The translations under genes were made by a program, and so were the position numbers. The notes beneath the pieces were generated by a model. It was not told the origin of the DNA. It searched no databases and saw nothing but the letters and a program-made list of their open reading frames with translations. A DNA stretch of 40,256 bases, taken from positions 1 through 40,256 of the forward strand of contig JANWWS010000017.1 in NCBI GenBank assembly GCA_025055765.1. The letters run 5' to 3'. Below, one piece after another: positions 38,111 to 39,636 of this stretch (positions within the stretch are counted from its first letter, which is position 1; each line of letters opens with the position of its first letter). Source of the DNA: Leptospiraceae bacterium. GTDB taxonomy: Bacteria > Spirochaetota > Leptospiria > Turneriellales > Turneriellaceae.

Positions 38111-38139
38111 TTGACCACTTAACTATGAATTCGTATCTT
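38111..38139 (+). promoter_or_regulatory. Promoter of the dksA-like operon (TTGACC-17-TATCTT)
   Basis: TTGACC at 38111-38116 and TATCTT at 38134-38139 are 17 bp apart. ATG 38150 is 10 nt after the -10, so the leader would be only a few nucleotides and has no Shine-Dalgarno. Confidence 0.5.
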
Positions 38140-38149
38140 GCATCCGCCC

Positions 38150-38575
38150 ATGGTCAAAACACCTTTCACAGATGAAGAGCTAGAAGAATTCCGCCAACTT
38201 CTGCTTGAAAAAAAAGCAAGGATATTGCGCGAAATCCAAGAGCAAAGGGAAGAGACCTCGCATACTCCAGAAGACACGGGAGACCTCGCTGATCTAGCAA
38301 CGGATCTTCTGGAAAAAGAACTCAATCTTTCCTTAACAGAAACCGAAAGGCAAATCTTGCAAGATATCGATGAGGCACTTGAAAGAATTGCCAACAAGAC
38401 TTACGGCATCTGTGTCGATACAGGCGAAATCATTAGCAAGGCAAGACTAAGAGCCATCCCCGAAGCCAAAAGAACCCTCCAGGCACAAGAAAAATATGAC
38501 AAATTCATGAGGGAACAGCGAAAAAAACAGCAGCAGACTGGTACTTTCCGCGTCCCAGGTAACTCCATTCCATAA
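38150..38575 (+). CDS. DksA/TraR-family protein with a degenerate zinc finger
   Basis: A 141-residue DksA/TraR-family protein. The first part is a long helical hairpin (FTDEELEEFRQLLLEKKARILREIQEQRE and then ETERQILQDIDEALERI) with DTGDLADLATDLLEKE in the tip region. The C-terminal segment TYGICVDTGEIISKARLRAIPEAKRTL corresponds to the zinc finger, but of the four usual cysteines only the first remains; the others are Thr, Ala and Gln-type residues. DksA binds the RNA polymerase secondary channel and acts with ppGpp. Zinc-free paralogues are known (for example Pseudomonas DksA2). ATG 38150 follows a TTGACC-17-TATCTT promoter by only 10 nt. The next gene starts 2 bp downstream. Confidence 0.87.
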   Translation: MVKTPFTDEELEEFRQLLLEKKARILREIQEQREETSHTPEDTGDLADLATDLLEKELNLSLTETERQILQDIDEALERIANKTYGICVDTGEIISKARLRAIPEAKRTLQAQEKYDKFMREQRKKQQQTGTFRVPGNSIP

Positions 38576-38577
38576 AA

Positions 38578-39303
38578 GTGCGCCTAGATCTCCATTTGCA
38601 GCTGAGAGATCTTGCCCAAGCTTTCGCCCATTTTCTTAAAGAAAACCCAAGGGCACTTGTGCCATATCGTTCCCATGAGCCGAAGCCTGAACATGTTTCC
38701 TTGCACTTTAAGGGCGAATTACCAGCCAAGATTGTAGAAGGTGCCTTGCGTCCCCTTCCTTGCACCCTCTGCCGCGAGAGGATTACCTACAAAAAGGGAC
38801 AATTTGATAAAAAAAAACCAGAAATCCCTTTTCTAATTTTATTACACAATTCAGCAAGGTATGATGAGAATACCTTTTTTGAAGATCCTGATGAAAATGC
38901 TCTCTTTATTGATATGATTGAAAAGACAACCCATTTCCATCCACGCCAATTTCTCGTGAGAGAACTTTTGCGCTGCGAGTTTGACCAACTAACCGCCGAC
39001 GGCCTCAAAAGCTGGATCCCTAATTGCAGCCGACATATTTATGACGATATCGATCGCTTTAATATTCGAGGCCTGCTTATCGTAGGCCAGGCGGCAAGCT
39101 TGCTCTTTCCTGATAAAGAAAAGCGATTGGAGATGGTGGGAAAAAAAATAACCCAATATGGAATTCCTACCGTGATAACACCTGGCCCCGGGAGAATCAT
39201 TTACCTAGAGAAGAAAAAAGCACCTAAAGCGACCATTTTAGAGGAAAAACGACGGATTTATCACGCCATCTTGTGCTTTAAAAATGAAGTAATGAAGATA
39301 TAA
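38578..39303 (+). CDS. Divergent uracil-DNA glycosylase-superfamily FeS protein
   Basis: A 241-residue protein starting with GTG 38578, 2 bp after the dksA-like gene, so they are probably coupled. The fold cues resemble family 4 uracil-DNA glycosylases: Cys62-x2-Cys65 in LPCTLCRERI, Cys133 in FLVRELLRCEFD and Cys150 in WIPNCSRHIYDDI (16 residues between, close to the usual 15), which together could hold a 4Fe-4S cluster. RGLLIVGQAASLLF matches the helix after the third strand, and YGIPTVITPGPGRIIY the C-terminal motif. The catalytic motifs differ: the GEGPG-type loop is LLHNSARYDEN, and HP(S/A) is TPGPG. So uracil removal is doubtful. It is unassigned in function and might be a repair or regulatory relative. 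Confidence 0.6.
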   Translation: MRLDLHLQLRDLAQAFAHFLKENPRALVPYRSHEPKPEHVSLHFKGELPAKIVEGALRPLPCTLCRERITYKKGQFDKKKPEIPFLILLHNSARYDENTFFEDPDENALFIDMIEKTTHFHPRQFLVRELLRCEFDQLTADGLKSWIPNCSRHIYDDIDRFNIRGLLIVGQAASLLFPDKEKRLEMVGKKITQYGIPTVITPGPGRIIYLEKKKAPKATILEEKRRIYHAILCFKNEVMKI

Positions 39304-39307
39304 CCTA

Positions 39308-39636
39308 TGGAGACGGCGGGAGTCGAACCCGCGTCCTAACAGCCAAAGGAATGGCTTTCTACATGCTTAGTGTATGTTTCTTTCCCTAACCAGAACCCCA
39401 TACACAGGGCACTCTGGGTGGTAGCGACTTTATTTCACAAGCTGCCGTCGCCTGCAACTTGCAAAGCCTCGTATGTTACCCCATGACACTACGAAGCCTT
39501 ATGCCATGAGGGCACCCGATTATGCGGCGAGTGCGAAGGAAGTATTGTCGGCAGTTATTCTAACACTCTGTTGAGGGCGAGTACCCTGCATGCTTTTCCA
39601 TTCCCCCGCGCTGCCAGTCGAAACCTATTCGTCCCC
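39308..39636 (-). ncRNA. ssrA: Transfer-messenger RNA (tmRNA)
   Basis: The minus strand has a complete one-piece tmRNA. The 5' end GGGGACGAATAGGTTTCGAC pairs through GGGGACG with CGTCTCC at the 3' end, and the T arm GCGGG-TTCGACT-CCCGC ends the tRNA-like part. A73 is present and CCA is not encoded. The tag frame is GCC GAC AAT ACT TCC TTC GCA CTC GCC GCA TAA (39552-39520), encoding ADNTSFALAA, with the ALAA end that ClpXP-type proteases recognise. tmRNA frees stalled ribosomes and marks their products for breakdown. The length is 329 nt. It is convergent with the glycosylase-like gene, 4 bp away. Confidence 0.97.

Follow-up and report, generated by a model that had tools for sequence, protein, structure and literature searches.

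The window analysed in this study is a stretch of 40,256 nucleotides from a Leptospiraceae bacterium (assembly GCA_025055765.1, contig JANWWS010000017.1). The protein of interest, P0001, is encoded close to the end of this stretch, between a DksA-like gene and a tmRNA gene, and is related to the uracil-DNA glycosylases (UDGs). The motif columns were read by alignment to L031, the canonical UDG of the window's own genome, and the conservation was counted over 30 aligned members. The features of the locus were as follows:

38150..38575, + strand: DksA-like gene without three of the four zinc-finger cysteines; Pfam zf-dskA_traR and DksA_N match over the cut-off
38578..39303, + strand: P0001, a UDG-superfamily protein with a predicted Fe-S site and without motifs A and B; 241 aa, GTG start, TAA stop
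38761..38772, + strand: Cys62-x2-Cys65, first half of the predicted 4Fe-4S site; invariant in 30/30
38839..38871, + strand: place of motif A (GExPG), here LLHNSARYDEN, residues 88-98, with His90 at the catalytic-acid position (from the alignment to L031)
38962..38964, + strand: Glu129 at the place of the uracil-reading Asn; E, D or Q in 30/30, never N
38974..38976, + strand: Cys133, predicted Fe-S ligand; invariant in 30/30
39025..39027, + strand: Cys150, predicted Fe-S ligand; invariant in 30/30
39178..39192, + strand: place of motif B (HPS/A), here TPGPG, residues 201-205, with His replaced by Gly203 and Pro204 kept; Gly in 15 members, Ser in 15, the following Pro in 30/30
39308..39636, - strand: tmRNA gene (ssrA, found with ARAGORN), a convergent neighbour outside the conserved unit

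The open frame of the DksA-like gene begins at a TTG at 38138, the ATG at 38150 being the likely start, and its stop ends at 38575, 2 nt before the GTG of P0001. ARAGORN also called a tRNA-Leu at 39307-39400, inside the tmRNA gene and on the same strand; this call is almost certainly false and derived from the tRNA-like domain. An earlier note on this DNA, made from the letters alone, had pointed to cysteines 62, 65, 133 and 150 and to the loops LLHNSARYDEN and TPGPG, all of which were seen in the open frame 38578-39303, and to a zinc-free DksA-like neighbour, whose zinc finger indeed retains a single cysteine out of four. The note had further drawn attention to the position next to ssrA. This adjacency is real in the window, but it is not a conserved context, because a tmRNA gene adjoins only 5 of the 15 nearest loci (f1-f4, defined below), and ssrA was therefore rejected as a part of the system.

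The relatives of P0001 belong to one class, the Leptospira side of the spirochaetes. The groups of the window's own order are referred to as f1-f4 and the remaining groups of the class as f5-f6, and each set contributed 15 aligned members. Of 198 genomes searched with BLAST, 37 held a relative, and every one of them belongs to this class. A profile built from the 30 members found the gene in 43 of 48 class genomes (in G013 as a short fragment only); elsewhere in the phylum it gave weak matches in 9 of 344 genomes. Completeness was 54-83% in the five class genomes that gave no profile match. The only invariant columns among the 30 members were the four cysteines, Gly170 and Pro204. Moreover, dN was well below dS in all seven computable pairs of the eight tried (dN/dS approximately 0.08-0.21, NG86), dS being saturated in every computable pair except L004/L008 (0.044/0.358). 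This distribution and the low dN relative to dS show that P0001 is no chance open reading frame. A phage or plasmid origin was also rejected, since P0001 had no match among 50,697 phage records and a class relative had none among 72,556 plasmid records.

Single-sequence searches with P0001 found nothing in Pfam, NCBIfam or PHROGs and no PDB sequence above chance, and the matches to a synaptic vesicle glycoprotein and to Era were chance hits (E 0.14 and worse). The kinship to UDG became visible only through family profiles and structure. The Pfam UDG profile PF03167 matched 20 of the 30 members (best E 1.8e-6), some of them over the curated cut-off in a genome scan. The earlier note had described a glycosylase-like protein that keeps the Fe-S cysteines but has lost the catalytic loops, and had proposed a profile-profile search and a structure prediction as checks. 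In the first, hhalign against 14 canonical UDGs gave a probability of 79.3% with the whole class alignment and 94.6% with the window's nearer relatives. In the second, an AF2 model of P0001 built from seven sequences (mean pLDDT 71.7, pTM 0.66) had the glycosylase fold; its core (residues 85-238) was mostly above pLDDT 80, and residues 37-68, with Cys62 and Cys65, were poorly predicted. All of the top 36 Foldseek matches of the model were UdgX or family-4 UDG structures (best E 7.5e-6). Furthermore, VIA-align gave Z 12.7-14.0 for 34 UdgX and family-4 rows and at most 10.8 for all others, the next best being the phiLo family-A polymerase (9qhs, Z 10.8) and MUG (Z 10.1). A class relative folded from the same sequence set gave the same fold matches. 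By fold and profile match, P0001 is a UDG-superfamily protein, and profiles, predicted structure and class-wide conservation agree with the description that had been given of it.

The assignment to a family within the superfamily is a different matter. The four Fe-S cysteines of family 4, in the order C-x2-C ... C ... C, are present in 30/30 members, and none of the 30 carries motif A GE(A/G)PG, the Asn of YI(T/A)N or motif B HP(S/A). According to the motif table, P0001 has neither the GEQP motif A nor the KRRIH loop of UdgX (family 7). Motifs A and B of families 1, 2, 3 and 5 were not seen in the aligned columns, and the MUG/TDG folds matched the model with Z 10.1 and below, which is still compatible with kinship. 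Judged by the tested motifs, P0001 is a member of neither family 4 nor UdgX.

Motif A is reported to provide the water-activating general acid and the motif-B His to be completely conserved and essential (PMC5295032). In the class, the place of the motif-A acid was occupied by His in all 15 members of f1-f4 and by Tyr (10) or Phe (5) in f5-f6, so that an acidic residue was found there in 0/30 members, and His was likewise found in 0/30 at its place in motif B. With the motif-A acid and the essential His both lost, the uracil chemistry of family 4 appears very unlikely in P0001 and its group. A canonical family-4 UDG, L031, is encoded elsewhere in the window's genome and was the sole PF03167 match found there by the Pfam profile. 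The altered pocket is nevertheless not random. The place of the uracil-reading Asn held Glu in 22 members, Asp in 3 and Gln in 5, always Glu or Asp in f1-f4, and His90-Asn91 was fixed in all 15 members of f1-f4.

It is conceivable that the protein is still a glycosylase for another base or with another chemistry, in which Glu or Asp at the Asn place would favour cytosine, whether intact or damaged, and the motif-A acid would be replaced by His90 or Tyr. The acidic or amide residue at the Asn place agrees with this proposal, as does the invariant His90-Asn91, which could mean a rebuilt active site, and an aromatic residue lies near the base-stacking position in 27/30 members. Moreover, the N204D change of human UNG is described as conferring cytosine-DNA glycosylase activity (PMC11289083), which keeps the proposal alive. 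However, no member has an acidic residue at the motif-A place or a His in motif B, and the residue at the acid place differs by suborder (His versus Tyr or Phe), which is not the pattern of a new catalyst under conservation; cytosine excision, if constitutive, would also be expected to be toxic. We consider such an enzyme unlikely. The earlier note had suggested either a non-enzymatic DNA sensor or a glycosylase with new chemistry, and of these a non-enzymatic protein would fit the data better.

The gene neighbourhood divides the class in two. The priA gene lies directly 3' of the gene in 15/15 f5-f6 loci and in 0/15 f1-f4 loci; dksA lies directly 5' of it in 15/15 f1-f4 loci, and within about 1.5 kb of the gene it was found in 0/15 loci of f5-f6. 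The window's genome carries priA on another contig (contig 49) with no UDG gene beside it, and since priA is unlinked in the window's order, any partnership with PriA must survive unlinked there. The linkage itself extends well beyond the class. The priA gene was located in 198 genomes, and the upstream stretch was taken in 40 genomes outside the class, all Spirochaetota and picked by family from the rows listed, not by content. A UDG or UDG-like gene preceded priA in 32 of these 40, which is 32 of the 38 assessable stretches, two being cut by contig ends. In 29 of the 32 the gene ended within -13 to +38 nt of the PriA start, and in the others the spacing was 210, 404 and 524 nt. The 32 include two weak UDG matches without the cysteines (L103 and L105). 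These genes, at L103:1678-2256 and L105:1722-2294, lie directly 5' of priA and look like remnants: they align weakly to UDG and carry neither the motifs nor any of the four cysteines.

In other spirochaetes, the same place before priA is filled by an ordinary family-4 UDG gene, and because canonical UDGs are linked to priA too, the linkage predates the motif loss. It may reflect only uracil repair near forks. The full order dksA-udg-priA was found in the priA stretches of L078, L082, L087 and L092 and in the separately fetched L068, and four of the six stretches without a UDG gene carry dksA before priA (L077, L083, L095 and L109). These arrangements are most simply explained by an ancestral unit dksA-udg-priA that persists as dksA-udg in the window's order and as udg-priA in f5-f6. 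Searches among open-licence PMC papers found no report of a spirochaete UDG that is linked to priA or devoid of the motifs.

The neighbouring DksA is itself altered. In all 15 f1-f4 loci, DksA retains a single zinc-finger cysteine of the four, although it is still matched by the domain profiles. All four are present in the dksA genes of L068, L077, L078, L082, L083, L092 and L109. Hallmark residues are lost from both partners of the window's dksA/UDG-like pair. DksA paralogues that bind no metal are known from other bacteria. These data raise the possibility that P0001 works with DksA and RNA polymerase and not with PriA, as an Fe-S redox sensor that, together with a zinc-free DksA, would tune transcription under oxidative stress. 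The invariable dksA upstream of the gene in f1-f4 and the loss of zinc ligands in the same order are in its favour, but in f5-f6 it is priA that adjoins the gene, with dksA absent from the searched surroundings of all 15 loci. We regard this as unlikely, and slightly less likely than the retained glycosylase.

Altered UDG copies at the priA locus are not confined to the class. The largest set is a priA-linked group of 15 rows, here called NxP (L061-L065, L067, L081, L090, L096, L100, L104, L106 and L113-L115), whose members come from other spirochaetes and share with the class the locus before priA, the four cysteines and an altered motif A. The hhalign probability between the class and six NxP members was 97.7%. 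In contrast to the class, the NxP group keeps the motif-B His (15/15 rows) and mostly a TN-type strand end; the motif-B Pro is present in 13/15 NxP rows. The NxP change is the milder of the two. The other altered copies at the locus are a second group (L066, L076, L086 and L098), L111, and the cysteine-less L103 and L105. Nineteen non-class rows of the motif table were canonical, among them L069, which is counted for its motifs and not for priA linkage; as L061-L069 had been fetched because of a class-profile match, the table is not an unbiased count. In L085, L094, L101 and L102, the priA-linked UDGs are canonical (GEAPG, HP kept) but carry His in place of the third Fe-S cysteine (KHRPP versus KCRPP); a 3Cys-1His cluster site, if formed, would be unusual for UDG family 4.

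The number of losses depends on the tree. The UDG tree, which has long branches and was made without L103 and L105, is compatible with the altered rows forming one group by a single change. In the PriA tree of 53 rows, however, keeping the altered rows together cost 74.5 log-likelihood units (AU p 0.001), which by this tree excludes a single origin. The PriA tree, a quick one that is subject to the long-branch caveat, needs at least two changes, and if the motif was never regained it would be read as about five motif losses.

The genomic distribution of further UDGs was also compared. An unlinked PF03167 match above 100 bits was found in 37/48 class genomes. Outside the class, a second match above 100 bits occurred in 8/19 genomes with an altered (NxP or second-group) priA-linked copy and in 0/18 genomes with a canonical priA-linked copy (Fisher p 0.003, kinship ignored). 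The remaining 11 of the 19 had no second UDG match above 100 bits, which speaks against a simple division-of-labour rule. In G104, G123 and G158 (L100, L065 and L104), the NxP copy was the only PF03167 match in the genome, so that the NxP type either retains activity or leaves these genomes with no UDG. In the spirochaete genome G049, PF03167 matches lay inside very long open frames of 771-1162 aa (contigs C123, C16, C72 and C342), which are perhaps UDG domains in large proteins.

Two further explanations can be set against these data. UdgX carries Fe-S cysteines, and its signature loop is KRRIH. UdgX structures are among the best fold matches of P0001, and the protein might accordingly hold on to uracil in DNA, by tight or covalent binding, without setting it free; but the family-4 motif A that UdgX keeps as GEQP is gone, the KRRIH loop is absent and a similar string, KRRIY, occurs only in the C-terminal helix of P0001, which makes such a function very improbable. 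That the gene is a decaying duplicate without function, as the canonical UDG elsewhere in the genome and the loss of the cysteines in two other spirochaete lineages (L103 and L105) might suggest, is hardly credible in view of the full-length intact frame across the class, the invariant cysteines and dN well below dS.

We therefore favour, with moderate confidence, the explanation that the P0001 group has given up uracil excision and serves replication restart as a DNA-binding Fe-S accessory. The protein would descend from a family-4 UDG gene seated in the spirochaete operon dksA-udg-priA. In the class, the residues for water activation (motif A), uracil recognition (Asn) and stabilisation of the leaving base (motif-B His) were lost, while selection preserved the fold, the loop proline and all four Fe-S cysteines; uracil repair would be left to the second, canonical UDG. 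With its UDG-like surface and the putative Fe-S loop, the protein would bind DNA that is single-stranded or forked, and it would serve PriA in replication restart as a non-cutting accessory or a redox-sensitive sensor. Of these elements, the computation shows the fold, the conserved cysteines, the motif loss, the linkage in operons, purifying selection and the separate canonical UDG, and it leaves as inference that the cluster is bound, that excision is lacking, and that the protein binds DNA and contacts PriA or DksA. It would likewise serve DksA, which would clear RNA polymerase from stalled forks. Constitutive stable DNA replication in E. coli is reported to need both DksA and PriA (PMC6488371), and the poxvirus UDG is described as serving replication without its activity (PMC1936997).

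A wider proposal is put forward more tentatively, as somewhat less likely than not: spirochaetes may repeatedly have made the operon UDG a non-catalytic Fe-S subunit of replication restart, which would read fork structure or redox state for PriA while DksA clears RNA polymerase, and which would be to bacteria what the UDG processivity factor is to poxviruses. Surprising here are the extent of the coupling to priA, which spans the phylum, and the repeated disappearance of the catalytic motifs. If the accessory function is true, it would show a base-excision enzyme turned into a replication factor in bacteria, allow the role of the family-4 Fe-S cluster to be tested apart from catalysis, and point to an uncharacterised gene that the Leptospira class has retained and that is coupled to priA. 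The annotation "uracil-DNA glycosylase" would then be wrong for such genes.

Among known systems, the family-4 UDGs (Thermus 1ui0, Thermotoga 1l9g and Sulfolobus 4zbx) share with P0001 the fold and the cysteine arrangement C-x2-C ... C ... C, and in other spirochaetes the family-4 gene has the position before priA that the class gene has in f5-f6. P0001 differs from them in having no GExPG, no strand-end Asn of YI(T/A)N and no HP(S/A), and in an extra N-terminal region of approximately 50 residues. UdgX has the same fold and is a very good structural match, but it keeps motif A, and P0001 has neither this motif nor the KRRIH loop at that place. The form of motif A retained in UdgX is given as GEQP (PMC5295032). 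The Vaccinia virus UDG (D4) is a precedent for a UDG with a replication role independent of catalysis, although its partners are the viral A20 and E9, unlike those considered for P0001. D4 is a family 1-type protein without an Fe-S cluster. Finally, DnaE variants are reported to carry a UDG domain (PMC3919608), and these and the phiLo family-A polymerase 9qhs (Z 10.8) place the UDG fold in replication proteins; such UDG-like domains sit within the polymerases, whereas P0001 is a separate, predicted Fe-S protein.
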